Part shown: in pieces, positions 1 through 24,758 of the stretch
Layout of the letters: every line of letters begins with the position of its first letter
Position numbering within the stretch: position 1 is the first letter of the stretch
Virus record (IMG/VR): IMGVR_UViG_3300042526_000719
Coordinates: 1 to 29,165 of that record
Reading direction: 5' to 3' (one strand)
Length of the DNA stretch: 29,165 nucleotides
Origin: a virus
Made by a program: the position numbers and the translations under genes
The notes under the pieces: model-generated
Database searches by the model: none
The model's input: only the letters and a program-made list of their open reading frames with translations
What the model was told of the DNA's origin: nothing

Positions 1-159
1 AGTTCCTATACTAATTTTTTGCCCTACGTTTATAGTGATTCCATTGTCAAATTCAGCTAGAACTATCTTTTCAGATTCATCCAACTTAAACTCTCCATTG
101 CACCCAATAACTCTAAGAGCTAAAGTGTCAGCAATTTCTATTCCTTTGACTGTGTTCAT
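1..159 (-). CDS. Partial unknown protein (N-terminal 53 residues)
   Basis: The minus strand holds an ATG at 157-159 followed by 53 sense codons running off the left edge. The protein begins MNTVKGIEIADTLALRVIGC and is otherwise unrecognised: mixed beta-type composition, no signal peptide, no obvious catalytic motif. Its ATG overlaps the TGA of the upstream exonuclease gene (156-158), the ATGA arrangement typical of translational coupling, so it probably belongs to the replication operon. The fold cannot be judged from this fragment. Confidence 0.7.
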   Translation of the reverse strand, partial: MNTVKGIEIADTLALRVIGCNGEFKLDESEKIVLAEFDNGITINVGQKISIGT

Positions 160-965
160 CCCCATAGCTCAAGCTTTTCTAAAATGTGATGCTTCTGTAT
201 AGGTGGTAAAGTTATCCCTAATCTTTCTAAGTCTGCTGTATTCCTCAGAACATATACTAAATCAAAGGTTTCCTTGAACCTATCAATAGCGACTTTTTCA
301 GTTATACCTGGAATCTCTAAGTAAAGCTTCAGTACTTGCAAAGGAAAATCATCTGAAAAAGTATCTAAAAGAGCCTTCTCTGCTGTCTTCATTCCTGCTC
401 CAGGAACACCTGGAATTCCATCTACACTGTCTCCTGCAATAGATTGTAACCATAAAAACTCTCGTGCTTCAGACTCAGAGGTAATTACAAAATCATTCTT
501 CTGATAATTGTAATGTTTCCCAGGTATCTGTTTCAGTACATCCTTGTCTGGACTGCAAATAGTAGATTCTGTACTGGAATACAGAGCTACTAAATCATCA
601 GCCTCTAAAGGTGCTACTTCATAAAATCCCCAGAATCTTTGTGCATAAGCTTTCAAAGCATAAAACAGGACCGGGGTTTCTCTCCCAGTCCTGTTTCCTT
701 TGTAAGGTCGAGTCTTGCTTATATCTTTTCGAAATACCGCCTTAGAGTCCGTAAAGAACCCTGCATAAGTAGAACACTTTGTTTGCTGAAGTATGCTGAT
801 TACAAACTTATCAAATCCAAGTTTTATATCGTCAAAACTTGTATCCACTTTAAGGCTGTAATATAGCATACTGTCCGCATCAATTAAGGCTATTCTAGAA
901 TCGTCCTTTGAAAATACAGTTACATCTACTTCATTCACCAAATTCCTACTAACTATCTCTAACAT
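156..965 (-). CDS. 5'-3' exonuclease / flap endonuclease (PolA N-terminal-like)
   Basis: A 269-residue FEN-type nuclease that would remove 5' flaps and RNA primers during phage replication. The first acidic motif IDADS lies at about residues 28-32, EADD at 121-124 and SPDKD at 138-142. The helix-3-turn-helix signature GDSVDGIPGVPGAG is at 178-191. These are the classic metal-binding and DNA-backbone contacts of T5 exonuclease and the Pol I 5' nuclease domain. It is a stand-alone protein, consistent with the separate polymerase at 12968-14842, which lacks this domain. It follows the rIIB-like gene by 33 bases, and the start is preceded by a purine run (AGAGGAAG). Confidence 0.93.
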   Translation of the reverse strand: MLEIVSRNLVNEVDVTVFSKDDSRIALIDADSMLYYSLKVDTSFDDIKLGFDKFVISILQQTKCSTYAGFFTDSKAVFRKDISKTRPYKGNRTGRETPVLFYALKAYAQRFWGFYEVAPLEADDLVALYSSTESTICSPDKDVLKQIPGKHYNYQKNDFVITSESEAREFLWLQSIAGDSVDGIPGVPGAGMKTAEKALLDTFSDDFPLQVLKLYLEIPGITEKVAIDRFKETFDLVYVLRNTADLERLGITLPPIQKHHILEKLELWG

Positions 966-998
966 CTTCCTCTATTTTTGGTGAAATAGTACATTCTG

Positions 999-2162
999 TT
1001 AAGATAAAGCGTTCTGTTCGTCAAGTGTTGCTACTACTTTAGCAATCTCATCAAGACGTAATTTAGTAGCTTCCTCCAACATCTTACCCCATTCTTCATC
1101 AGTAAGTTTAGCATACTTAGATGAATGATAGATAGAACCGTTTACACCAGCCAAAGAACTATGTACAAAATACTGCTTGCAACGAATAGCTCCAGTTTGA
1201 TCATCTGGAACAGCACCTACGTGCATAGGGTCGATAAATACATTGTGTATCTCACCTGAATACCCTGAGATGTAAATTAAACCTCCTACATGAAGACCTG
1301 GAACACAACTAACATTATCGTTTGTGTTTACTTGCTCCCATGAATCTAGAGCATGTATACACCCAACTTTAATGAAGTGTCCAAGTTTATCAAAACCATT
1401 AGGCCCAACACAAGAGAATTCATCTCCACCACTACCCATCATTGCAGGTTCGAATAAACGCTCCTCTACAAATTCAGGTAGTCCTTCAGATGTAATTTCA
1501 CCAGTATTCACATCAAATGTGCGAGCATAACGTGGCTTTATAACAGGTTCTCCGTCCTCATCTGCTACAAACTTGTGCAAGATTTCTCTAGAAACTTTAT
1601 ACCCATTCAAAAGACCTTCATTAGTAATCTTCATCTGATACACAGTTGCTTTCTCAGCTGCTATCTCTGGAGAAAACCCTGCATCCAAGAACTCATTGTA
1701 CATCTTTGGATGTTGATACTTCAAGTTTACGAAATTGAAGAACTTCTCTGCAAAATAACTCCCTTTCTTCTTCAAATTAGGGTTACGAAGAAACCTCACC
1801 CACATACGTACGATAGGCATAAAGTCTACCCCTTTGTCTTGACTGTCAAGAATCCTATCCACTAAAGCTTGTGGGAGAGCTACAGAACTTACTACTTTAT
1901 TATGTACTAGATGATAAGTCCCTGTCTTAGAATTGTACTTCAATAATGGACAAGCAGACTCCACCAAGTCTTCAGATGTTTTAGACAAGAAAGCCTTAAG
2001 CTCATCTGCAATTGCATTGTATTCTTTCACGGTTGTTACACCCTCCAAAGTATCTTCGAAAGCCTTGATGGCATCATAAGTTTCTTTAGAGAAAGGAGTT
2101 GAATACGATTCCTCCCCAATTGTTATAGAGATATTATCTCCAATTACTGCATACGTTAGCAT
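999..2162 (-). CDS. rIIB: rIIB-like protein
   Basis: A 387-residue protein resembling phage T4 rIIB. The recognisable part is the central region with a LLNGYKVSREI-type segment, and the later block around residues 270-330 containing VSCVPGLHVGGLIYISGYSG and then VFIDPMHVGAVP, the conserved core of the family. In T4, rIIB acts with rIIA at the membrane in exclusion and lysis-timing phenotypes; the biochemical function is not settled. Here it lies 11 bases downstream of the rIIA-like gene, the same pairing as in T4, which strengthens the call. It is longer than T4 rIIB, with extra sequence at the N-terminus. Confidence 0.85.
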   Translation of the reverse strand: MLTYAVIGDNISITIGEESYSTPFSKETYDAIKAFEDTLEGVTTVKEYNAIADELKAFLSKTSEDLVESACPLLKYNSKTGTYHLVHNKVVSSVALPQALVDRILDSQDKGVDFMPIVRMWVRFLRNPNLKKKGSYFAEKFFNFVNLKYQHPKMYNEFLDAGFSPEIAAEKATVYQMKITNEGLLNGYKVSREILHKFVADEDGEPVIKPRYARTFDVNTGEITSEGLPEFVEERLFEPAMMGSGGDEFSCVGPNGFDKLGHFIKVGCIHALDSWEQVNTNDNVSCVPGLHVGGLIYISGYSGEIHNVFIDPMHVGAVPDDQTGAIRCKQYFVHSSLAGVNGSIYHSSKYAKLTDEEWGKMLEEATKLRLDEIAKVVATLDEQNALS

Positions 2163-2173
2163 ATTTATTTTGA

Positions 2174-4912
2174 TTAAATTGTTAATTCACTTTCTACTAA
2201 TTCCATCTCCATTTCAGAAGATATTTCTTCAGCACCCCACTTCCAACCATCTCTGTTCTTGTACTTCAGATACCCTAAGATTTCTGAAATAGAATCTTGA
2301 TTGTTAAAAGCAGACCTTTCTACTCTTGCCAACAATTGTCCAACACCAAGATTGTAGTCATAAAGCTCCTTTGCAAGTTCCAAATACTCTACATCAATAA
2401 CATCAGCACCTGTTATATCTGTAAAGATAAACCTTTGAAAGCTTTCTTGCATCAATTCCTCTTTAGAAGGATTTGATTCACAGAACAATTGGAAATCATA
2501 TAAACTACGAAGTTTAGTTACAAGTTCGTTAGCATTATATCCCCTATTAAATAAGTTTAAACCATCAACTTTTTTCCTGTAATTTTCGTATTTTACATAC
2601 TTGTCATAAATTACAGAATCTACATTTGAAAATTTATCCATGTAATCTATAGATGGACAATCTTTAAAGATTTCTTGGCAAAGAATCACAGTAAATGCAT
2701 ACTTTAAAGCTGGATGAATAGAAATCTTGCTCCCAACTCTATTGTAAAGTAACTCACTAAAATGTGAAATATTCCCTCCATTTGAAAGCACTTTTTTCAA
2801 TAAAGATTCACTTAATTGTACAACACTAATTTCTGGAAGGTCAATCCTAGAGTTGCGTTTTAAGTTAACGTCATTGTTTCGCATATTTACTGGGATAGAC
2901 AAAGAATAGAATGCAATACTATCTTGATAAGCATACCTACTGGTATATTTAGAAAATCCTATTTGCATTAAAGATAAGAATCCTTGCATTTCTTCTTTCT
3001 CATCAGAAGTATAGTAGTACAATGGGTGAGAAGGATTGATAAGTTCATCCATTTTAGGCTCAACTTTATCTGCAACCCACTCGTATGCCCTACTCTTATA
3101 CTCTTGACGCATTGTAAATGCAACTTCCTTCCCTTCTAAGAACCTTAAGTAAGATGGGGAAAGTGTATCTCCTTTCTGAGACTCAGCTTCTTGAAAAGCT
3201 TCTTCTACATGGTCAGGGACTACAACATCCGCATATCGTTTAACAGACGGGTCTGCTATAAGATACTGCATTGCTGCTCTAGCTACTCCTACCCTGTTGC
3301 TGATGATAAATGCAGAACTTTCTGGATAAGCAATTTTAATTTGAGCTATCCATTCGTCAGACATACTTACATCTTTCACACAAATGATAGTTTCCAATCT
3401 AAGTTCTTTGCACAAATACATATTCTTGGACTTACTGTAATTTCCGTCCTTGATGTAAATGTTTTCAAATGCTCCGAACTCAGTTAGAGAATTCATCTCT
3501 GTAATAGAAACAACTCCTTTGTAGTTTACAGTTACCTTCTCAAACTGTAGGGCCCCAAACACAGTACTTATGTCCTTGTACATAATCTCAGGATTCAACG
3601 GAAATCTGGGGCTAATAGATGTACTTTCTACAATAGCAGATAATCTCCCCAATGTCGTGTTTGACCTAAACCTATGTGTAGAAAAGATTGCAGAACAAGC
3701 TTTTATCCAAGGTATAAATTCTGTAGAACCACTCAACTCTTCAGTTACAATTTGAGTTGCTTCAACTTCAGCTGCTTTAATTACTCCTAAAACGTATGCT
3801 TTTGTTGCATCATCCCAAATGACTTTCTCACGCGAAGGAGTGACTGACACGCCCTCTTGAATTACTACTTCTACTCCATTCTCATCCCTGTATGACTGCT
3901 TAATTGGGCACTTAAATCCTACAGAACCGTGCAATTCTTGTAACTCCAACTCCTTAAAGTCAATCAACCCATAATTTATACCAGCTGGGTCTTTTGGGCT
4001 CTTTACAATTACAATGTGAGGTTTAGTAAACACTTCCCTTTCACTCAAAATAAGAGCGTTAGAAGAATAGATAACTTTCTCTGCAGTCTTTGTACGAGTT
4101 TTACTTGAACCAAATTCATTATCTACAATTTCATAGTAGATGTTGTTGACATACAACAATTGGTCTCGTACAGCCTCTGTAAATAGGTTTCTATTGTGTC
4201 TTTTTACCCCAAATGAAATCGTAGTTCCATTGGTTTCATCTGTATCTTCATAATAGACTTTCAATCCATCTGAAAATACGATAAATTTGTTCTCTTGCCC
4301 TGTAATTAAGTTTAACCTTGGTACAGTAAACATACTCTTATATGGATAACAAGTACAAAGGAATAGTCTCCCATTGTGTACTGTACGCATATTGTATGCT
4401 GGCACTCCAGTTGAGAATGCTGCTTTGGCGCCCAAGCCAAAAGCCCCGAAGCCTTCAGAAGAATTCCTTTTGGAACTGAACCCCAGAGAAAGTATACCTT
4501 CAAGCCTCTTATCTCCCAATCCTACACCTTTATCTATTACTTCAAATAGATCGCAGAATCCACCTCCAGAGTTCTGAGTGTACCGTAATAGTACTTCATT
4601 ATGTTCTGAGTCTAAATGAGGTAGAGAATAGTAAGAACTGTCAAAATTAGAATCTTCGTACTGTTCTCCAGAACGAGTGATGTAATAATCTGATGCTTGC
4701 TTCTGTCCTGACAGTATTTCTATGGCTATTTCCTTCTCTCTTTGTGCATCCCATGCGTTTGCAGCCAATTCTCGAACAGTTGAAGGTATAGGAGTAGAGT
4801 ACTGTGATGCTTGAAGCACATCATAAATCATCTTTTGGGCTCCGACATTTATCTTTTTGTCTACTCCAGAGCCTGAGGAGACAAAGTCTTGATCTATTGT
4901 TTTTATACTCAT
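2174..4912 (-). CDS. rIIA: rIIA-like GHKL ATPase
   Basis: A 912-residue protein with an N-terminal GHKL (Hsp90/gyrase/MutL-type) ATP-binding fold. The N-box is RELAANAWDA at residues 47-56, with E48 and N52 as expected catalytic and Mg-binding residues. The G1 box is DKGVG at 127-131, and the glycine-rich lid GFGAFGLGAKAA is at 154-165. The long C-terminal part is unrecognised, matching rIIA family architecture. Its ATG overlaps the stop of the nuclease gene upstream (ATGA) and rIIB follows directly. In T4 the pair affects superinfection exclusion and the host membrane; the role here is inferred from pairing and fold. Confidence 0.88.
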   Translation of the reverse strand: MSIKTIDQDFVSSGSGVDKKINVGAQKMIYDVLQASQYSTPIPSTVRELAANAWDAQREKEIAIEILSGQKQASDYYITRSGEQYEDSNFDSSYYSLPHLDSEHNEVLLRYTQNSGGGFCDLFEVIDKGVGLGDKRLEGILSLGFSSKRNSSEGFGAFGLGAKAAFSTGVPAYNMRTVHNGRLFLCTCYPYKSMFTVPRLNLITGQENKFIVFSDGLKVYYEDTDETNGTTISFGVKRHNRNLFTEAVRDQLLYVNNIYYEIVDNEFGSSKTRTKTAEKVIYSSNALILSEREVFTKPHIVIVKSPKDPAGINYGLIDFKELELQELHGSVGFKCPIKQSYRDENGVEVVIQEGVSVTPSREKVIWDDATKAYVLGVIKAAEVEATQIVTEELSGSTEFIPWIKACSAIFSTHRFRSNTTLGRLSAIVESTSISPRFPLNPEIMYKDISTVFGALQFEKVTVNYKGVVSITEMNSLTEFGAFENIYIKDGNYSKSKNMYLCKELRLETIICVKDVSMSDEWIAQIKIAYPESSAFIISNRVGVARAAMQYLIADPSVKRYADVVVPDHVEEAFQEAESQKGDTLSPSYLRFLEGKEVAFTMRQEYKSRAYEWVADKVEPKMDELINPSHPLYYYTSDEKEEMQGFLSLMQIGFSKYTSRYAYQDSIAFYSLSIPVNMRNNDVNLKRNSRIDLPEISVVQLSESLLKKVLSNGGNISHFSELLYNRVGSKISIHPALKYAFTVILCQEIFKDCPSIDYMDKFSNVDSVIYDKYVKYENYRKKVDGLNLFNRGYNANELVTKLRSLYDFQLFCESNPSKEELMQESFQRFIFTDITGADVIDVEYLELAKELYDYNLGVGQLLARVERSAFNNQDSISEILGYLKYKNRDGWKWGAEEISSEMEMELVESELTI

Positions 4913-5364
4913 TTTTGTGAATCAATAATGTTTTGAATTGTAATATCCACATCAGCTTTACAAGTAGGGAGGTAAAGAGTTGGGAGGACAAAGAGAACCT
5001 CATTTGGGTCTTCTAAGAACTTCTTAAACAATTTCCATCTCAAAGGAAAGCTTTCATTGGGCCTACCTTTTACTTCAATAATCCACTTCCCGTGTGGGTC
5101 TGTGAAATCTGGAGTGTAAGTAATAGGCTGCACCCTGATGTTGTTCTTTTTCTTGAAAACCTTATTCTTATGCTCCCAGTAATCCAAAGTTGGGAGGAAA
5201 CCAGGGACTAAGCAATAAGAGTTTTGTTCATAAGCAAGTGGAATGTTGTTTGCTTTCAATTGTTTATAGGTGTAAGCCTCAAGCATTGATTTAAAATTTA
5301 TTCCATCCACTATAGTAGGCTTGCTTATTACTATCTGCCTACCTTTCTTCTTTTTAAATGCCAT
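4909..5364 (-). CDS. T7 endonuclease I-like Holliday junction resolvase (PD-(D/E)XK)
   Basis: A 151-residue nuclease with the layout of T7 endonuclease I. A SMLEAY segment carries E29, TPDF carries D86, and IEVKG carries E97 and K99, giving the expected E-(x)n-D-(x)10-E-x-K active site. The basic N-terminus (AFKKKKGRQ) would favour DNA contact. It sits between primase and rIIA, overlapping the primase gene by 11 bases and the rIIA gene by 4. Likely function is cleavage of branched DNA (replication or recombination intermediates). Other small PD-(D/E)XK families cannot be fully excluded, but the spacing of the four residues favours endonuclease I. Confidence 0.8.
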   Translation of the reverse strand: MAFKKKKGRQIVISKPTIVDGINFKSMLEAYTYKQLKANNIPLAYEQNSYCLVPGFLPTLDYWEHKNKVFKKKNNIRVQPITYTPDFTDPHGKWIIEVKGRPNESFPLRWKLFKKFLEDPNEVLFVLPTLYLPTCKADVDITIQNIIDSQK

Positions 5365-6331
5365 GTAATACTTGTTTGAGGGTTTCTAACCCATGATTTT
5401 TAACTAAATCTGAAGGGTCTTTGCTCAGATACTTTGAATCTATACACACATTAAGTAATTCATACTTATCTGCAATCTTTTCCCCCATTACTTGACCTGT
5501 GTTTGGCTCTTTGTGAAAGTCATTGTCATAGATAACTATGATTTTACTGAATTTCTTCTTCAAATGAAGTATGAGCTTTTCTGGTGGTAATAACGTCTCG
5601 GATTGTAAAGCTATAGATGGGATTCCTGCAGAGTGTAGAGACAAAGCATCCTTCAGAGAGGATGTAAGAGCACATATTCGTCCAGAACAAGGTAAAAGAG
5701 AATATCCTTGGATGTCATTCTTACCTGTGTTTGAAAACCATTTACCATCTGTAAGTTCTGGGGAGTAAATCTTAATCCTTGGGTAAAACTCACAATACGC
5801 ATAGCAATGTTTTGGTGCATGATACCTTGTCCCATTTATCCAATAGTGAGATATGGGTTGTATATGCGCTTGCTCTGCTAAGTTTTTGCTTACTCCAAAC
5901 ATACTCCAGAAATCTACATCTGAGGTTTTCCAATCTCTAGATTTGATTAAGAGGATTGCTTTTTGTACTGGCCGTGCAGTGTAAGTTACTGCTCTTGAAG
6001 CTACACTTAAAGTCCCTCCACTTAAACCTAAACAGAAATCTCTGTCTATTAAAACTAAAGCTTCCTTGAAAGTAATCCTGTACTTAAACATGATGTAAGC
6101 AAATACATCAAAGCTATGCTCTCTTGCCCCGTAATCTAAGTATCTTAAACATGTGTCACCTTCAAAGATTACTGCACTTGCAACTGGGTCATTTCTAAAT
6201 TCTGATTTAAACTTAGCCCCAAATTTTATAAAGTTTCTACAGTAATGTCTGAAGATAGTTTCCTCTGAAAGTCTAGCATAAACCTCTTCTTTAGTAAGAT
6301 TTGCATTACTATCTCTGTTAGTTACAGCCAT
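5354..6331 (-). CDS. DNA primase (Toprim domain, zinc-ribbon cysteines absent)
   Basis: A 325-residue phage primase. The Toprim region spans about residues 218-300: ALTSSLKDAL at 221-230, then the acidic YDND motif at 268-271. The N-terminal segment (about 40-95) has the shape of a primase zinc ribbon (FRNDP, then YLDYG, then a helical FAYIMF segment) but lacks the paired Cys/His ligands. In motif I the usual glutamate position before LKDAL reads Ser, a form I recall from other phage primases. It would make RNA primers for the DnaB-type helicase at 8493. It is separated from the upstream SSB gene by a terminator-like hairpin. Confidence 0.85.
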   Translation of the reverse strand: MAVTNRDSNANLTKEEVYARLSEETIFRHYCRNFIKFGAKFKSEFRNDPVASAVIFEGDTCLRYLDYGAREHSFDVFAYIMFKYRITFKEALVLIDRDFCLGLSGGTLSVASRAVTYTARPVQKAILLIKSRDWKTSDVDFWSMFGVSKNLAEQAHIQPISHYWINGTRYHAPKHCYAYCEFYPRIKIYSPELTDGKWFSNTGKNDIQGYSLLPCSGRICALTSSLKDALSLHSAGIPSIALQSETLLPPEKLILHLKKKFSKIIVIYDNDFHKEPNTGQVMGEKIADKYELLNVCIDSKYLSKDPSDLVKNHGLETLKQVLHGI

Positions 6332-6366
6332 TAGAAATTTAGATTAAAAGTGAAATAAAATGTGAA

Positions 6367-6396
6367 GGGGGATAAAAGTAAATACCTCTATCCCCC
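6367..6396 (-). terminator. Terminator-like hairpin after the SSB gene
   Basis: GGGGGATA (6367-6374) pairs perfectly with TATCCCCC (6389-6396), an 8-bp stem with a 14-base loop. On the minus strand it is followed by a T-rich stretch (TTCACATTTTATT). It lies in the only sizeable gap (93 bases) between the SSB-like gene and primase. It could end or attenuate transcription, making the abundant SSB message separate from primase. Confidence 0.6.
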
Positions 6397-6424
6397 AATC
6401 ACATAATTAACTTAACCTAAACTA

Positions 6425-7237
6425 CTAAAAAGGAAGATCGTCTGTGTCGTCATCCCAATCTCCTGCTGCAGTAGTTGCTGTAACAGAAGGAGCAAATTTA
6501 GGTTTAGTATCTGGAGCTGTTGCAGAACCAGTGTACTCAGTCCACTCTATAGTGTAATCACCTTTGATAGCACCATAGTCCTCATTAAGAGCTTTGATGA
6601 ACAAATCTGTTCTCTTTGGCTTGATACGACCAAAATGACGAGTGTAAACTGCTTGGTACTTACCATCACGAACATACACAAGTACATTTACACTATTCCC
6701 AGAAAGTATAGAGATAAGTGCACGTAACTCTGACACATTACCTTTAGAGATTGCATCTACAGTGTCCAAGAAAATCTCGTCACCTGTAGCTACGTTTGCC
6801 CAAGCTCTTACGAACTCAGTCACCATATCCATACCTCTTGGAATGGCATAAGATGTTTCAGGATTCTTGTACCAATCAGGTAAGTTTGAAGCATCTATAG
6901 TACCATCTGATAAGATTGGTGCCCAAGTGTTGTCACCTGTACGGTTGTACCACTTTACTTTACCAGTAGTAGATTTCCAAGGACCTGAATTGACAAGAAA
7001 TTCACAAGGAACTTTTACATCATCATTGCCAAGCCAGAATACTATTTTCTGTACTGGCCCATCACCTTTACCGAAATCTACCACATAGTTAGGTTCCTTC
7101 TGAAACATAACTCCCATTGCTTGCAATGCTGCAAGATTAGGGTTTACAGCTAGAACTTTCATTGCAGTAATACCTGTGTAGAGTTTACCACCTGCTCCTG
7201 CTACTTGATCTTCTGAATTATTAGATTTAATTGCCAT
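6425..7237 (-). CDS. Single-stranded DNA-binding protein
   Basis: A 270-residue protein whose strongest signature is its acidic C-terminal tail, DWDDDTDDLPF, matching the DDxxPF-type tip that SSB proteins use to recruit replication partners. The body is beta-rich with aromatic residues (VFWLGNDD, GDNTWAP, WYKNPE) but no clear OB-fold motif that I can align by eye. It sits in the replication operon between primase and a partner gene 7 bases upstream. It is longer than bacterial SSB, as many phage SSBs are. The SSB role is inferred from tail, size and context. Confidence 0.75.
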   Translation of the reverse strand: MAIKSNNSEDQVAGAGGKLYTGITAMKVLAVNPNLAALQAMGVMFQKEPNYVVDFGKGDGPVQKIVFWLGNDDVKVPCEFLVNSGPWKSTTGKVKWYNRTGDNTWAPILSDGTIDASNLPDWYKNPETSYAIPRGMDMVTEFVRAWANVATGDEIFLDTVDAISKGNVSELRALISILSGNSVNVLVYVRDGKYQAVYTRHFGRIKPKRTDLFIKALNEDYGAIKGDYTIEWTEYTGSATAPDTKPKFAPSVTATTAAGDWDDDTDDLPF

Positions 7238-7244
7238 TTTTAAT

Positions 7245-7727
7245 TTAGTTTAAAGATTCGTTTAAGTTTAAAACTTCCTCTGCAGTATCGTTGCTGTCCC
7301 AATCTGTATCATCTGGAAAAGCTTGTGCCGGTACAAAATCAGAGTTTGTAGTAGTTGATGCTACAGTTGTATCTACAGTTGTTGCACTACGTATGATTGT
7401 AGATGCAGTTGGTGTAGGTGTAGTTGTAGCCTCTGTAGTTCCTCTGAACATGAAAGGCAAGAGTTTCACTTTAGCAACTTTCTTACCCTTCAATGCTGGG
7501 TCTTTGAACATCATATCTACCATCCAATCTTCGAATGGACATACTGTTCCTATAGCGTCAATGTAAGCATATTTCAATGCTATGCCTGGACGGTCAATAC
7601 CCATTGCAAGATCCTGAAGAATCATTCCTGGTGTTACTTCTGTTACTATTGTGCAACCTGATAGGTCACGCATTCCTTCGATTACAGCTGTTGTAGAGGG
7701 CTGTGACTCTGTTCCTTGAACTCCCAT
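7245..7727 (-). CDS. Unknown protein paired with SSB
   Basis: A 160-residue protein of unknown family. Residues 1-95 form a compact-looking domain (VTPGMILQDLAMGIDRPGIA, then CPFEDWMVDMMFKDP). It is followed by a Thr/Ala/Ser-rich low-complexity linker (about 96-127) and an acidic tail FPDDTDWDSNDTAEE. The linker-plus-acidic-tail design echoes the adjacent SSB, which starts 7 bases downstream, so the two may be made together and may share binding partners. No catalytic motif is visible. A replication or recombination accessory role is inference from position only. Confidence 0.65.
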   Translation of the reverse strand: MGVQGTESQPSTTAVIEGMRDLSGCTIVTEVTPGMILQDLAMGIDRPGIALKYAYIDAIGTVCPFEDWMVDMMFKDPALKGKKVAKVKLLPFMFRGTTEATTTPTPTASTIIRSATTVDTTVASTTTNSDFVPAQAFPDDTDWDSNDTAEEVLNLNESLN

Positions 7728-7766
7728 TGTTTAATTGATTTATTGGTTTATTTGTTGATTAAAAGT

Positions 7767-8471
7767 TTAATTTATTCCGTAGTACTCTCGTACTGTTTTT
7801 GTCACAGCATTCAAATCATTACCGATTTTTAAGTCTGTAAACATGCCCATTGGACTTTTCGCTGTTGAATCCCCAGAATTCTGAGTTACAAAGTGATTCC
7901 ATGGGACTTTCTTTCCTTCAGCAAGTTGCATTTCTACATCAGCCATGAGGACGATTGTGAACATACCTTCCAGGGTAACCACATTATCCACCATTTTGCC
8001 AATCGTTTTCGCTTTGAGTCTTCTAACTCCACTTGCATCAGTAACCTCCTCCGTGTGAGTGAGATAGTAAATAATCAGGTCATCTCTTAGATCTTCAGAG
8101 ATTCTTGACATCTCCCAAATTGCTTTGCCAATCTGACTAAACTTATCGAAGCCCTTCACATCTACTTTCCGCATGTACTCATTTGCAGCACAATACTGCC
8201 AATCATCCACTACGATAGTCTTTATATTAGGCATCTTCTCACTCACATGGCGAAGGACCTTGAGAATCGTAGGAACGTCATCAGAACAGAACATATTCCC
8301 TGTACTTGGTGACTTACCAGCTTGCACTTTCACGTATTCTTTCCCCTCCCTGAAAGGAAGAGGTTTACCTTGTACATTGATAATGTACGTACTCTTTGGA
8401 TCAAGCGTTCGCATGGAGGTACTCTTCCCTGCTCCCGATGCTCCGATTATACAAATTCCTATTGCACCCAT
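7767..8471 (-). CDS. P-loop ATPase, Sak4/RecA-like recombination protein
   Basis: A 234-residue nucleotide-binding protein. The Walker A motif GASGAGKS is at about residues 10-17 and the Walker B strand TIVVDDW near 83-89. It matches the short phage AAA_24/Sak4-type ATPases often found beside SSB genes and thought to act in single-strand annealing or recombination. The start is placed at the ATG at 8471; a longer frame to 8480 would need a TTG start. The gene follows the DnaB-like helicase by 21 bases and precedes the SSB pair. RecA-like or RAD52-like subtype cannot be settled by eye. Confidence 0.8.
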   Translation of the reverse strand: MGAIGICIIGASGAGKSTSMRTLDPKSTYIINVQGKPLPFREGKEYVKVQAGKSPSTGNMFCSDDVPTILKVLRHVSEKMPNIKTIVVDDWQYCAANEYMRKVDVKGFDKFSQIGKAIWEMSRISEDLRDDLIIYYLTHTEEVTDASGVRRLKAKTIGKMVDNVVTLEGMFTIVLMADVEMQLAEGKKVPWNHFVTQNSGDSTAKSPMGMFTDLKIGNDLNAVTKTVREYYGIN

Positions 8472-8492
8472 TGGTTTCAATTTTTTAAAGGT

Positions 8493-9455
8493 TTATTTCA
8501 CTCGTTTTCTCTCCGTAATTGTAAATCTGGCGCCATCAAAGTCATAAGGAATCATCCCCAACATACCATCCCTATTCTTTTCCATGTGAATTGCCATCAA
8601 CTTGATTGGGTCTTCATTACAATACGGTTTTACTATCCCATACAGATCATGTGGACGTTGTATTATCATAACAACATGTGCATCTTGACCTATCGAATCT
8701 CCACCAAACAAATCTGTCAGTAGAGGTTGATATTGGTTCTTAGCTCTGTCCTCTTTCTCTATGTTCCGATTCAATTGAGATAGTAAAATATTTATCACTC
8801 CATACTCAGCTTGCATTTTCATACATCCTTTAGAGAGCTTATTCAACTTCTTCAATTCTTCCTCTTCTTTCTCATCAGGCACAAGCCTACTGTGGTCCAT
8901 AAGATTGATAATTAAAGTGTCTGGATTCTTCTCTTTGTATCTTCTTGTAGCTTCCTCGATAAATCCTATACTCTTAGGTCTGTTCTGGAAGTAAATTGGA
9001 TACTTTGTAAAAGGAGAAACACTGGCTATAAAATCTTGAAAGGATTTTTCCCCTAACGTAGAATCTATAGAATAAAGTTCAGATAACTGTTTCCCTGTAG
9101 TCTTTGAAGCTGTCCTGAGAAGTTGCTGATACCCAGGCATCTCAAAAGACCAATAGAACACAATCACCTTTTTGTTTGCCAACATAATCAAATCCAGTAC
9201 ATCGAAAAGAACTTGATTACTAAACGCACTTTTACCTGAGCCAGGTCGACCAGCTATGATATACAATTTGCCTGGCTGAAACCCTCCAAGCAATTGTCTA
9301 TTAAGTCTGGGCCATTTTGTAGGGTAAACCTCTCGTAAACCTTTCCTTGATTGGTCTACAACTGCAATAGATTGTCTTACTGCAGTACGTATAGGTTGAA
9401 ATTGGAGTTCTTGGAGAAGCTCAATCGAGGACTTGGGTGTTTCTTCTTCCATCAT
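8493..9455 (-). CDS. DnaB-family replicative helicase
   Basis: A protein of about 320 residues with the RecA-like C-terminal domain of DnaB helicases. Walker A is GRPGSGKS at 69-76. It is followed by the FYWSFEMPGYQQLLRT block (helicase motif 2 region), then a DHSRLV segment, NILLSQLNRNIE and FGGDSIGQDA, the last matching the family's SxxixQdAD block. The DnaB N-terminal domain is essentially absent. I chose the ATG at 9455, which has a strong GGAGAGCA ribosome-binding sequence unusual for this genome. An ATG at 9488 is possible but would overlap the upstream gene by 68 bases. It should unwind DNA at the fork for the family A polymerase. Confidence 0.88.
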   Translation of the reverse strand: MMEEETPKSSIELLQELQFQPIRTAVRQSIAVVDQSRKGLREVYPTKWPRLNRQLLGGFQPGKLYIIAGRPGSGKSAFSNQVLFDVLDLIMLANKKVIVFYWSFEMPGYQQLLRTASKTTGKQLSELYSIDSTLGEKSFQDFIASVSPFTKYPIYFQNRPKSIGFIEEATRRYKEKNPDTLIINLMDHSRLVPDEKEEEELKKLNKLSKGCMKMQAEYGVINILLSQLNRNIEKEDRAKNQYQPLLTDLFGGDSIGQDAHVVMIIQRPHDLYGIVKPYCNEDPIKLMAIHMEKNRDGMLGMIPYDFDGARFTITERKRVK

Positions 9456-9975
9456 TGCTCTCCTTTCCAAATTCATCCAATTCATCATCGAATTGATCCC
9501 ACTGTTCCCACACTCTATTATTTACCCATACCTCTAATGCATTTAGAAACTGAAGTTTATCTCTTTGATGCTCCAATTGTATGTGCAATAGACTCATGAT
9601 TTTCCTGTGCAACTCTGGGTTTTTGTTTACAATCTTTTTGTACTTCTCCTTAGTCTTGGCGTTCGCTTTTGCGTTTGGGTCATGTGCTCTAAGCATCCTG
9701 TAATTCCCGTGTGTGCCGACTTTCAAAGGATATGCTCCAAGTAGCTCCATAAACATTTTATCAAAGTCACCCTCAATCAAATCCGTAAATTTCTTACGGA
9801 CAGTCACTCCTTCCTCTGTAATCTTGATGTACCCCAATCCTTCCATTTTGTCGATGTCGCAACAGGGGATATAAGGTGTCTCTTCGCCTCTATGTAAACA
9901 CCACAGATGAATATACTCATCAGGTGTCAACTGAAGCTCTTTCAGAGTCTCTAAATTGATTTCAATTGTTGTCAT
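9421..9975 (-). CDS. Unknown replication-operon protein, possible helicase loader or partner
   Basis: A 184-residue, mostly alpha-helical, charged protein. The N-terminal 55 residues (LTPDEYIHLWCLHRGEE, then YIKITEEGVTVRKKF) look like a small winged-helix unit. The middle has a lysine-rich helix (NAKANAKTKEKYKK), and the C-terminus is acidic. It overlaps the start of the DnaB-like helicase, so its translation is probably coupled to it. Position and the helical/winged-helix look suggest a helicase loader or replisome organiser, but no family was recognised. Confidence 0.6.
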   Translation of the reverse strand: MTTIEINLETLKELQLTPDEYIHLWCLHRGEETPYIPCCDIDKMEGLGYIKITEEGVTVRKKFTDLIEGDFDKMFMELLGAYPLKVGTHGNYRMLRAHDPNAKANAKTKEKYKKIVNKNPELHRKIMSLLHIQLEHQRDKLQFLNALEVWVNNRVWEQWDQFDDELDEFGKESNDGRRNTQVLD

Positions 9976-17792: not shown

Positions 17793-18650
17793 TTAAAATA
17801 TATATCTTATTGTATTCCAAGGAATTATCTCATCATGCAGCTTTACAAAAGACTTTATAAAATCACTTTTTAAATGATGCTTATATCTTATGTTAGTACC
17901 ACCATATTGAGATACTTTATCTTCTTGTATTGTAGGAACCCATAAATACTCATCTTCACCAGAGATATTGTTGGCTAGATTGTACTTATGTTTATTTTCA
18001 TTATGAGTTAGAAATATGACTTCACATTTAACTACATCTTTATAGCTTACATAGTCATTAACCATGTGAAATAAATACTCATATTCCTCTAACCAATTAC
18101 CTGCAACTATTACAGGACTAAAGTTTATATGAACATCATATCCTGCATCAATGAATGCATCAATAGCTTTAATTCTATCAATGATTTTAGATGTGTTAGG
18201 TTCTAATTTATCAGACATAACTTGAGGCATTAGACTGAATCTAATTCTAATTTTACCTTCAGGGTCAAATATCGTTAAATCAGGATTTACATACTTAGTA
18301 GCAAAACTACCCATTGCCATAGGATGCTGCTTAAAGAAATTAAATATCTTTTGCCATTCATGGTACTTAGCATGTAAAGCAAAATCTTCATTACAACTGA
18401 TGTCATAGGTAATGTACTCAGGATGAGTTTGATTAGGTTTATCTACAACAGCAAACATACAATGACTGTTAATCTCACTTAATATGTCCATAGTATTCTT
18501 TGCTATATCTAAACCTTCAGGCTTATGTCTTTTCATATAACAGTATGAACAGTTGTATAAACAGCCATGCCCAAAACTTGGGCTAATAAAATCAGTTGAC
18601 CTGCCAGATGGTCTAATTATCATAGACTTTCTTGTTAATTGTTTTATCAT
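17793..18650 (-). CDS. Radical SAM protein, spore photoproduct lyase-like
   Basis: A 285-residue protein with the radical SAM cluster motif CLYNCSYC (C30, C34, C37) binding a [4Fe-4S] cluster and S-adenosylmethionine. The preceding SPSFGHGC and following YMKRHKPEG match spore-photoproduct-lyase family proteins, which in Bacillus repair the thymine photoproduct by hydrogen abstraction. The later IRFSLMPQ and HINFSPVIVAGNW segments fit the barrel strands. The C-terminal cysteine of true SPL is not evident, so the substrate may differ: DNA repair, or another radical modification. It is the only clear enzyme in the accessory region and lies 5 bases before a 58-residue gene. Confidence 0.82.
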   Translation of the reverse strand: MIKQLTRKSMIIRPSGRSTDFISPSFGHGCLYNCSYCYMKRHKPEGLDIAKNTMDILSEINSHCMFAVVDKPNQTHPEYITYDISCNEDFALHAKYHEWQKIFNFFKQHPMAMGSFATKYVNPDLTIFDPEGKIRIRFSLMPQVMSDKLEPNTSKIIDRIKAIDAFIDAGYDVHINFSPVIVAGNWLEEYEYLFHMVNDYVSYKDVVKCEVIFLTHNENKHKYNLANNISGEDEYLWVPTIQEDKVSQYGGTNIRYKHHLKSDFIKSFVKLHDEIIPWNTIRYIF

Positions 18651-18870: not shown

Positions 18871-19112
18871 GGGGAGAATGCCACCTCTGACACTCTCCCC
18901 TGATATGAAACCTAACCACTCTCATCACATCATTTGCAGTCTAAAGAGGAATTGAACCTCTTCGCACTTAATTGTGCGTCCCCGTCTAGACTGATTAAGA
19001 AGAAAGGAGTAAGGGTTAAAGTGACCGGTTGCCTATGTGGTATTTCTACCTTACATGTTCAAAGAACTCTCAGGGCTTTCGGTTTTATTAAGCCACTTTA
19101 ACTTTAACCCTT
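18871..19112 (-). ncRNA. Candidate structured RNA region with three modules
   Basis: The 295-base gap 18833-19127 holds three separate folded modules in a row. In minus-strand order these are a four-way junction (19011-19112), a three-way tRNA-like junction (18937-18993) and a 10-bp hairpin (18871-18900). The four-way junction has a 12-bp closing stem (AAGGGTTAAAGT with ACTTTAACCCTT) around GGCTT/AAGCC, GTTC/GAAC and GGTA-GAAA-TACC hairpins; the GAAA tetraloop exists only on the minus strand. The 10-bp hairpin contains a G-U pair that would be A-C on the plus strand. All indicators agree on minus-strand transcription. Confidence 0.6.
18937..18993 (-). other. tRNA-like three-way junction without a D arm
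   Basis: On the minus strand CAGTCTA and TAGACTG form a perfect 7-bp stem. A 5-bp arm (CGCAC/GTGCG, 6-base loop AATTAA) abuts directly a 6-bp arm AAGAGG-TTCAATT-CCTCTT, and that abuts the closing stem. The last arm is a textbook tRNA T arm (GGTTCAATTCC). The 8-base junction strand GACGGGGA takes the place of the D arm. It may be a tRNA-derived or tRNA-mimicking RNA; a working tRNA would be highly unusual. Confidence 0.5.
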
Positions 19113-21601: not shown

Positions 21602-21820
21602 TTAAGATTTGATTGGTTGATAAAATGGTGAGCCTATTCTGTTGAATGCAACAAATCCTTCTGGATTTTTTATGTATTCAATTCCTGCACTTGTTTCAAT
21701 TAGACTAAATAGTAATTGATTACTTTTTTTTGCTTCAAACTTAAGTTTGGAGTGTATTTCTCCGCTTGTAGTGTGGTATATTTTACCAATAACAAGGTTT
21801 TTTCTTTCTACTTTTTTCAT
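21602..21820 (-). CDS. Small unknown protein (72 residues)
   Basis: A beta-rich protein (VERKNLVIGKIYHTTSGEIH, then LLFSLIETSAGIEYIKNPEG) resembling the small barrel-like proteins of phages, but not assigned. It ends 3 bases before the 77-residue gene and overlaps the 136-residue gene by 4 bases. Confidence 0.55.
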   Translation of the reverse strand: MKKVERKNLVIGKIYHTTSGEIHSKLKFEAKKSNQLLFSLIETSAGIEYIKNPEGFVAFNRIGSPFYQPIKS

Positions 21821-22227
21821 GGTTTAAGATTGATTAGTTTAAGAGTTTCTTGTAATCCAATTTCCAATGCTTGCTCATATCTAAGAAAATATCTATCAGC
21901 AAATTCTTCACTTCCAGTGTTGGTAATTTCCATCTCTCCTCCATCTGGTGTGTAGCGCCCATAAATTGAAATACTGTAAGTCATTCCATCAAAATTAATG
22001 GTAATCCACATATCCATTTTTTCTCTCAACCATTTCTGTAGTAATGATTGGGTTGGAGCTGAGAAATTTTCTTTATAAATATTGTGATTCTTAGCAGATG
22101 TATCTTCATTAGAAGAGTAGTAACCTAAAGATTTTAATTGTTCATTATAAAATCTTTCAGTTTTTACATCAAAACCTTTTTCTTTAGCTATAATAGCAGT
22201 TTCAAATGATATTAGTTGTTCTTTCAT
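21817..22227 (-). CDS. Conserved Bacteroidota phage protein of unknown function (136 residues)
   Basis: The signatures ISFETAIIAKEKGFDVKTER, APTQSLLQKWLREKMDMWIT and YEQALEIGLQETLKLI are familiar from a protein widespread in phages and prophages of Bacteroidota. Its function is unknown. It is the first gene after the long non-coding region 22228-22967 and carries a TCCTAACCTTACA leader before its ATG. Confidence 0.72.
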   Translation of the reverse strand: MKEQLISFETAIIAKEKGFDVKTERFYNEQLKSLGYYSSNEDTSAKNHNIYKENFSAPTQSLLQKWLREKMDMWITINFDGMTYSISIYGRYTPDGGEMEITNTGSEEFADRYFLRYEQALEIGLQETLKLINLKP

Positions 22228-22249
22228 TGTAAGGTTAGGATTTAAAGGT

Positions 22250-22960
22250 TTAAAAGTAAGCAGTTTGTCTTCATGCTTAGGAATACGACGAATATCACGT
22301 CCTTTCTAGTGTGATTTCAGGCTGTACAACCTGTGATAGCGCGCATCATAAAGATGGTAGCGTTTCATTTCGAAACTTTAGTCAAAGTGATTTGGAATAG
22401 CTATCCACACTCAGGTCTCTTATCATACCACTCCTCTCTATCCTTTTTGGAGTGGTGTTGGCTGTTGCATTGTTGTAGACCTTATGCTTAGTCCCCATGC
22501 TCTATTGGGTTTCATCCAGTATTATGTACTGGCAACTTAAATGGTATTATTCTAAGAGTTATCTGTACCATTACCACCACGGTATAATGTTTTAGATAGT
22601 ATTATTACTAAATGTGTTTTCAGCAATCTTTTAGAACCCGGTGTTATTATCCCCTTCATACAGTTATGTTCATACTGGTTAGATATGAGTAACTGCATTA
22701 ATGATAATATGTGCTTTACGCACCAGAACAGCTAAAGAATTATAGCTAATACTTATTACACCTTTGTAAACCATATTGTATCCCTCTGCACTCAGTTGTA
22801 ATAGGCTTTTTTTAGATGTGTTCTTAACAGCGTTCTTAGATTTCTAATCCTTAGACTGAGCTGCCACGAGACCTTATTAAGAATGTACGTCACTACATTC
22901 CCTATTTACAACTGCTCACCCTTGGGAAGTGAGTTGTGCATTGGGAAATGGTAATGTTTT
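22250..22960 (-). ncRNA. Candidate large ornate structured RNA (GOLLD/ROOL-like class possible)
   Basis: The 740-base gap 22228-22967 has no ORF of note. The best-supported domain is closed by CAGTTGTAATAGG (22793-22805) with CCTATTTACAACTG (22901-22914), 13 bp with one bulge. It contains TTCTTAA 22821/TTAAGAA 22877, CAGC 22828/GCTG 22860, and GAATGTA 22881/TACATTC 22894. A second domain has AGGTCT 22413/AGACCT 22477 enclosing ACCACTCC 22427/GGAGTGGT 22449 (8 bp). Further hairpins include 22516-22532, 22597-22610, 22711-22723, 22756-22769 and 22915-22933. Length, phage setting and nesting resemble the GOLLD and ROOL RNA classes, but no class-specific motif was verified. Strand is inferred from the neighbouring genes. 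Confidence 0.6.
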
Positions 22961-22967
22961 GTGATTT

Positions 22968-23168
22968 TTACATGTCATCACATTCAATACAACATGCAAC
23001 AAATCCCATAAACATCATTATAGCTGTTATAAACATAAACATACCATGATGTATAGTATTTATAAGCTCAAAACTACCAAGTGTTAGACACCACAGTAGA
23101 ATAGTTAATACTAAAGGCATTGCTGATACACATAAGAATATCAATAATAATTTAAAGAATCTGTTCAT
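22968..23168 (-). CDS. Small membrane protein with two transmembrane helices
   Basis: A 66-residue protein (starts MNRFFKLLLIFLCVSAMPLV) with two hydrophobic helices, about 5-32 and 41-60, and an acidic C-terminus with three cysteines in the end region (ACCIECDDM). The start is the ATG at 23168, preceded by AACCTAACCTAACA; the longer frame would need a TTG. It sits between two structured non-coding gaps. A holin- or exclusion-type role is possible but unproven. Confidence 0.6.
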   Translation of the reverse strand: MNRFFKLLLIFLCVSAMPLVLTILLWCLTLGSFELINTIHHGMFMFITAIMMFMGFVACCIECDDM

Positions 23169-23652: not shown

Positions 23653-23691
23653 TTTAAATGTTTTTTGAGTTTGAGTTGGAATGCAAAGTGC

Positions 23692-23881
23692 TATACTTAT
23701 TAAGTATAACAGGTGATTTTGTATTGATAAGAAAAGATGAGATAAAGGGTTGGTATGACTAACACCCTAAGCATCAACAACTTACGATGTAAAACACACC
23801 CAACAGTTGACTCACTTATACTGTGTTACAGTAAGTTACCAACACTTATACTCTGTGTTATACACAAAGCATAGGTGTTGG
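23692..23881. ncRNA. Candidate structured RNA region, strand unclear
   Basis: The 292-base gap 23653-23944 holds several hairpins. TATACTT/AAGTATA is at 23692-23708. GTTGGT/ACTAAC near 23749-23763 has a G-U pair only on the plus strand. ACTT-ACTGT/ACAGT-AAGT is at 23814-23836 (9 bp, 2-base bulge). CCAACAC 23839/GTGTTGG 23875 encloses TGTGT/ACACA (23854-23866). The one strand-informative pair points to plus, unlike the other gaps, so orientation is left open. Confidence 0.35.
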
Positions 23882-23926
23882 TTTCAGATTGTCCAAACTC
23901 TATTCAAGAGTCTGCAGTTGAAAAGG

Positions 23927-23948
23927 GTAAGGCCCCTTCAGGCCTTAC
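23927..23948 (-). terminator. Rho-independent-type terminator overlapping a stop codon
   Basis: GTAAGGCC (23927-23934) pairs perfectly with GGCCTTAC (23941-23948), an 8-bp GC-rich stem with a 6-base loop. It is followed on the minus strand by CTTTTC. The stem includes the TAA stop of the 75-residue gene at 23945-23947, so translation to the stop would compete with hairpin formation. Confidence 0.65.
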
Positions 23949-24172
23949 GCTTTTGAACCAGTTAAAGACAGGTACCATTCCGCAGGAACAACCGCGTCTT
24001 TAACTAAGATAGCCTCTGCTTTTGCATTCCTTGCAAAGGCATGCAAAGTAGAGACAATTTCCGTTACAGGACAGAACTCATTTTCAATGAGATTCTGCCC
24101 GCCTTTAACGGATACATAAAAGAAAGAACCATCGGTAGATGGTTTGGACCACATTATTTTGTAAGTGTTCAT
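23945..24172 (-). CDS. Small unknown protein (75 residues), first minus-strand gene
   Basis: A beta-alpha protein (MNTYKIMWSKPSTDGSFFYV, then VSTLHAFARNAKAEAILVKD) of unknown family. It is the first leftward gene after the divergent region, so probably early-expressed, and it ends in its own terminator. The leader AACCTAACCTAATATC precedes the ATG. Confidence 0.6.
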   Translation of the reverse strand: MNTYKIMWSKPSTDGSFFYVSVKGGQNLIENEFCPVTEIVSTLHAFARNAKAEAILVKDAVVPAEWYLSLTGSKA

Positions 24173-24228
24173 GATGATATTAGGTTAGGTTTTTAAACTT
24201 AACCTTAAGCCGGGGTGACATTTGGCAT

Positions 24229-24351: not shown

Positions 24352-24758
24352 ATTTTTTAAGCTGAACCAACATTCGGGCAAAACTTTGACATACCTTTGC
24401 CACCATGCACCATTCGCAAGAATGATCACCCATGAGGATTCGAAAGAAGCAGTAATGGGTCAGAAGTTGGATTAGGAGTTCTAAATAAGAACAGAGGTTT
24501 TCTCCGATAGTGCATGAAAGTGAGGGTATAATAGTTGGTATGGGGGGTTTCCAAAGAAATACAAACAGAGGAAACATACAGGTAATTGTAGGTGAATTAA
24601 CACCATTTGACCCTCCTTGGCAGATTGAAAATTAAACAGTTCAATCAACACTTGCCAACTGAAATCCCAAACGTAAAATAAAAAAGATGTGAGGAAGGTT
24701 CACAAGGGATTTTTCATATACTTTTGCAAGGTATCTACAATCAAAGTTCAAACTCAAA

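Follow-up and report, generated by a model that had tools for sequence, protein, structure and literature searches.

Twister ribozymes depend on the stems P1, P2 and P4, which are essential, and may carry P0, P3 and P5, which are optional; the fold has two pseudoknots and cleavage takes place at a U-A step, the U of which is less conserved than the A, and is possible even in molecules without P1 (PMC5408937). Self-cleaving ribozymes are reported, with reference to earlier work, to be enriched near other ribozymes and near phage genes, and the role behind such associations is described as an open question (PMC10085705). The locus analysed here lies in an IMG/VR virus record of 29,165 bases, taken over its whole length and referred to below as the window. 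In the window and in other phage loci, twister-type modules with a long side arm (module A) accompany a second, compact RNA (module B), which provides concrete sequences for the role of ribozymes in phages.

Genomic setting of the gap

The window contains RIIA/RIIB-like genes, a helicase and a family-A DNA polymerase. Up to ~24.2 kb its genes lie on the minus strand, and beyond that point on the plus strand. Its small proteins have relatives in Flavobacterium, Cellulophaga and Bacteroides phages, which makes a Bacteroidota host likely. The gap under study (22228-22967) is flanked by small minus-strand genes and was read on the minus strand, the same as the genes; it had been described as having no ORF, and it contains none above 52 aa. 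The downstream gene (21817..22227, minus strand, 136 aa) belongs to the PHROG 12005 family (E 5e-24), and starts 30 nt past module B; its protein, too, has relatives in phages of these three genera. The upstream gene, recognized by translation (22968..23164, minus strand, ATG at 23164), encodes a small hydrophobic protein of 65 aa and carries ahead of its start codon the leader AACCUAACCUAA, which is common to the neighbouring genes. Several small minus-strand genes (at 24188, 23180, 22239 and 21137) share a leader close to AACCTAACCTAA(C) before their start codons, perhaps a signal for translation or regulation peculiar to the phage. When the gaps of the window were compared with one another, no similarity stood credibly above shuffles. 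Elsewhere on the minus strand, a radical SAM gene akin to spore photoproduct lyase was recorded at 17793-18650 (Pfam E 8e-21).

Relatives of the locus were sought by several routes. Homologue searches with the DNA polymerase, RIIA, the 136-aa protein and a 347-aa protein gave no locus spanning the gap, and blastn of the gap against phage and plasmid collections returned chance-level pieces only. One record (L026) is 88% identical over 4-9461. A distant relative found via a 197-aa protein (L119), the contig of which starts inside module B, matches the 3' end of the gap with 94% identity over 48 nt. A 22-mer from module B occurs exactly in 14 other, diverse viral contigs, and two further pattern scans enlarged the set to ~58 distinct members; two look-alikes (L233 and L234) were excluded by hand, and the weakest few members retain part of the element only. 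Matches in the phages pT24 and phi19:3, aligned with B, were rejected as short chance matches within protein genes, and a 14-mer shared with Flavobacterium phage FPSV-S29 was set aside as weak, the gap of that phage holding a tmRNA instead. This tmRNA (Rfam 58 bits; L116 3344-3758) occupies an unannotated gap of 1.1 kb.

Folding of the gap

The original prediction was of one structured RNA of about 700 nt in a phage accessory region. Structured non-coding RNA is indeed present, as two covarying modules, whereas a single 700-nt molecule is not supported. All the stems that had been listed occur in the sequence where they were said to be: the 13-bp stem consists of 9 bp (22914-22906/22801-22793) and 4 bp (22904-22901/22805-22802), with one base bulged out between them, and encloses a 7-bp stem (22900-22894/22887-22881), and a second nest holds 8 bp (22456-22449/22434-22427) within 6 bp (22482-22477/22418-22413). 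The gap contains 11 Watson-Crick stems of at least 7 bp against 9.1 +/- 2.7 in shuffles, and its longest run, of 9 bp, was equalled in 85 of 200 shuffles. The nested long stems on which the prediction relied are each at chance level, and only the 13-bp stem is conserved; comparison between phages supports it as part of module A, whose side arm it forms.

The minus strand of the whole gap folds at -185.9 kcal/mol against about -157 for shuffles, none of 100 being as low (z ~-3.6), and the plus strand, also more stable than its 100 dinucleotide shuffles, gives z ~-2.8; an earlier z of -6.9, based on 20 shuffles, was overstated. Windows of 370 nt at 18871 and 23681 fold equally well or better relative to shuffles, and the stability of the whole gap is modest evidence for RNA. 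The strongest folding of the contig lies at 23681-24150 (z ~-8.7 for a 370-nt window), a region that includes a 75-aa gene (23945-24172) and a terminator-like hairpin at ~23925-23950.

An Rfam scan of the gap gave nothing at gathering score and only chance-level matches at E<=10, and neither ARAGORN nor Rfam found a tRNA or tmRNA in it. The resemblance to the GOLLD and ROOL RNAs, put forward on size and location, was not upheld: the covariance-model search for these and other large RNAs matched no known large RNA, and modules A and B are independent. One ornate RNA of the GOLLD/ROOL type across the gap would suit its size, its place in a phage and a fold better than that of shuffles, but we regard it as highly improbable, for A and B are found apart from each other and in varying order, the middle of the gap is unconserved, its single stems are at chance level and Rfam offers no match. 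Compensatory changes, proposed as a check on the helices, are present in modules A and B; the middle of the gap (22412..22772, minus strand) has no credible homologue in the collected loci or in the phage and plasmid collections, so the 8-bp/6-bp nest within it (22413-22482) is neither supported nor refuted.

Between this stretch and module B, directly 5' of the latter, lies a hairpin domain (22308..22411, minus strand) with an AGUGUG/CACACU end stem and a CAGGUUGUACAGCCUG arm. Its fold has a z of -3.2, the domain having been chosen after the fact; no homologue was found, and its description as tRNA-like is speculative. A reduced tRNA-like structure also occurs at 18938-18992 (minus strand), with an acceptor-like stem AGTCTAG/TTAGACT, a T-arm GAGGTTCAATTCCTC and no D-arm, and a similar mini-tRNA stands directly before B in L200 and L171.

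Module A, a twister-type RNA with a long side arm

Comparison of the rest of the gap with B-bearing loci revealed two conserved blocks, 22906-22943 and 22774-22805. They form either side of a junction, and the 13-bp stem is the start of its third arm. Module A (22782..22944, minus strand) was delimited from homologous copies and their covariation. Its P2 pairs UGCAC with GUGCA (22940-22936/22791-22787), P4 (22933-22929/22919-22915) closes the loop UUCCCAAGG, and a T1 pseudoknot joins CCC (22926-22924) to GGG (22784-22782). The 13-bp stem (22793..22914, minus strand), composed of CAGUUGUAA/UUACAACUG plus UAGG/CCUA, forms the base of the side arm; its 9-bp part is kept, with 6 of the 9 pairs changed on both sides, and the content of the arm, ~45-200 nt long, differs between phages. 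Eighteen copies of A were found in 16 loci, the window and 15 others, all on the strand of B and mostly 5' of it, at ~0.15-1.4 kb from B in 16 of the 16 loci showing both; these loci were fetched for carrying B, so that the association is partly selected, which does not apply to the fixed strand and the short distance. A recurrent module, CTCTCATC.AATTGCAGG...AAGGGTTGCAACCTTGTGAGAG, was seen upstream of B in L139 and inside the arm of A in L149.

In the alignment from which the arms were trimmed, the 22 pairs, those of the pseudoknot counted, are paired in 98.4% of cells (0 of 500 shuffles), and 13 of them show double changes. An alignment that takes in the outer stem P1 has 17 pairs at 97.3% pairing, 11 of which carry double changes, and 0 of 500 shuffles reached this on the main measures; in both alignments the variable arm was cut out of the sequences by the analyst's choice. 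The helices of A, like those of B, covary across phages, which establishes both as RNAs; both modules are under structural selection.

The order of elements in A is that of twister: P1 lies outside, followed by U↓AA (the arrow marks the cleavage step), P2 (UGCA), the P4 loop CCCAAGG, the variable arm, P2', GAGGG within UGCAGAGGG, and P1', with the T1 pseudoknot CCC:GGG. Among the relatives of A, P1 shows double changes in 4 of 4 pairs (90% paired) and P4 in 5 of 5 (100% paired), and P2 is 98.7% paired. T1 varies from CCC:GGG to CAC:GUG, with 100% pairing and 5 double changes, one C-G pair being replaced by A-U in 5 of 15 copies, and it is retained in the window copy. The second pseudoknot, T2, could form from CC/GG in the relatives, as judged by eye only. 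What sets A apart from twister-P1 (RF03160) and Twister-P5 (RF02684) is the long arm, variable between phages, that separates P4 from P2'. Neither these two models nor a scan with all of Rfam gave a match on A, and A is for this reason termed twister-type and is not filed as an Rfam member.

Two phages that also bear modules A and B (L188 and L180) contain near-canonical twister-P1 ribozymes at 3715-3779 and 7390-7454, respectively, outside A, which RF03160 matches with 57 bits (E 2e-14) against a cut-off of 67.2 bits. The A-core model, which has an E of 8.7e-8 in the window (R2), matches these sites at E 6.5e-5, the next match being at 0.27; it was built from arm-trimmed sequences, and the fit is not independent of that choice. 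Since the model also finds near-canonical twisters in two of the same phages, a twister fold for A, as a variant of the known ribozyme, is strongly suggested by the sequences.

The copy in the window departs from its relatives: all 15 copies from the relatives have U↓AA, and the window copy has C↓AA, a P1 of 0 bp and a shortened P2-P4 linker. On these three grounds the window copy may be slow, impaired or dead; inactivity is likely, not certain, since a twister lacking P1 can still cleave and the U is the less conserved base. It is also conceivable, though on balance unlikely, that A in general is a non-catalytic twister look-alike, for example a scaffold presenting the variable arm. The failure of the Rfam twister models, the unusual length and variability of the arm and the window copy without P1 would agree with such a scaffold, but the conserved U↓AA, P1, P2, P4, CCC:GGG pseudoknot and CAAGG/GAGGG signature, together with reciprocal matches to twisters of the same phages, argue for the ribozyme fold.

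Module B, a compact two-hairpin RNA

Module B (22252..22311, core 22258-22307, minus strand) is an RNA of ~50 nt defined by covariation, its covariance model R1 scoring 88.5 bits in the window. This conserved two-hairpin element was missing from the list of predicted stems. It comprises, in order, UAGAAAGG, P1, the linker GUAUUCCU and P2. In the window P1 pairs GACG with CGUC (22301-22298/22290-22287) and P2 pairs AAGCA with UGCUU (22278-22274/22262-22258) around the loop UGAAGACAAAC; the P2 loop of the family is NGAAGACAAAC. Type 1 members have a P1 of 4 bp that closes a 7-nt loop, and in type 2 members the loop is longer, often with a hairpin of its own ahead of GGCAA; P1 loops range from 7 to ~90 nt. 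Among 26 type-1 sequences, 9 pairs are paired in 99.1% of cells (0 of 500 shuffles), with 6 pairs and 41 cells changed on both sides, P1 passing from GACG/CGUC to GCAG/CUGC, GUAG/CUAC, GUCG/CGAC and GACA/UGUC. A wider alignment of 64 rows to the model is 98.1% paired with 87 double-change cells, a few of the rows being weak or spurious and the alignment leaning to structure.

No match to B at gathering score was obtained with Rfam 15 in the window and 14 B-bearing loci, and relaxed thresholds gave no credible match. B is thus a separate RNA family without an Rfam match, in agreement with the suggestion that the gap might hold a new class. A short string of the hatchet ribozyme (RF02678), AUUCCU...GACAAAC, resembles B; hatchet was rejected, as its model had no match at E<=10 in any of 16 records, the covarying stems differ and B is shorter. 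A short ORF with a GTG start was likewise rejected on account of a stop codon in that frame in L119. Published papers found with the B loop sequence were unrelated ones only, subscription papers and preprints lying outside the search, and B may conceivably have been described already in some metagenome-scale RNA survey.

Distribution and surroundings of module B

With the covariance model, one full copy of B was found in each of 23 whole phage records (<=172 kb), with one partial second copy among them; an exact-pattern search agrees with a single copy per record, and its reversed-pattern control gave zero. The window's polymerase was matched in 3 of 22 B carriers, weakly. B was not found in 397 (family) and 395 (class) bacterial genomes around L120, a Flavobacteriales-type genome (Lacinutrix MAG), ~790 in total, two sets that may overlap and were searched with strict filters, viral records serving as the positive control. 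A one-copy RNA that is absent from Rfam and recurs across uncultured phages with unrelated or weakly similar DNA polymerases points to a putative shared phage step.

The 5' edge of B lies at the stop codon of an ORF of at least 50 aa in 19 of the 58 members, directly after a tRNA in L151, and, by eye, directly after tRNA-like 3' ends in L230, L239, L171 and L200. In L142, L144 and L150 it accompanies one and the same gene, each time close to the 3' end but not at the same point, and in L144 and L150 it supplies the stop codon of that gene; these differing positions suggest that B has been moved by recombination. Such displacement would also be compatible with B as a DNA-level signal (a promoter, or a recombination or integration site) with incidental hairpins; we consider this improbable, as the changes are two-sided and compensatory with invariant loops, no mobile element is attached, and a P1 loop of such variable length would be unusual for a DNA site. 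One B-bearing contig contains a group I intron (Rfam 53.6 bits; L142 9067-9294).

Beyond the small-gene cluster of the window, there is a further conserved non-coding element, C (24387..24533), taken provisionally in plus orientation, opposite to A and B. It was detected by blastn, is common to many B-bearing phages (for example L227, L235 and L145), with E values down to 5e-16 (in L227 and others), and has two stems that appear, by eye, to change on both sides.

Proposed role and comparison with known systems

A and B are independent modules: either may come first, the spacing between them varies, and most occurrences of B have no A. The gap is, by a narrow preference of ours, probably a co-directional minus-strand spacer in an accessory operon, with A and B as separate cis-acting modules. 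Both would act on the transcript carrying them: cleavage at U↓A by intact copies of A would free the part downstream, and B would set or shield an RNA end beside A, tRNAs or stop codons, by cleaving itself at its 5' edge or by serving as the binding site of a host nuclease or ribonucleoprotein. The favoured reading of B is that of an RNA-processing element acting in cis; a shared processing role is a guess, because B is unlike any known ribozyme and has no constant neighbours.

Alternatively, B could be a trans-acting small RNA, or could bind host RNA polymerase or ribosomes, for instance as a put-like antiterminator; there would then be one such RNA per genome, directed at conserved machinery of the host and not at the ends of its own transcript. 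This is a tentative alternative with which the single copy in nearly every record would agree, as would a distance to the next ORF of 23 to >500 nt and the unpaired UAGAAAGG, GUAUUCCU and GAAGACAAAC, which are kept across phages with unrelated or weakly similar polymerases. However, a Bacteroidota-type promoter motif searched for in the window is not above chance and no promoter was found next to B there, many members abut or overlap an ORF end, and no target was identified. A 17-base 16S rRNA 3' tail, taken for pairing with B, matched 0 of 21 genomes, the tail being possibly wrong or the rRNA possibly unassembled or masked, and this result carries no weight for either reading.

The nut and put antiterminator RNAs are short two-hairpin RNAs that act in cis in phage operons and have conserved unpaired bases, features that B shares. 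Unlike them, B is present in a single copy and is not beside a recognized promoter, and the likeness is one of general description. The gap resembles GOLLD and ROOL in being a large non-coding region of a phage, but it is unmatched by them and is built of small independent modules.
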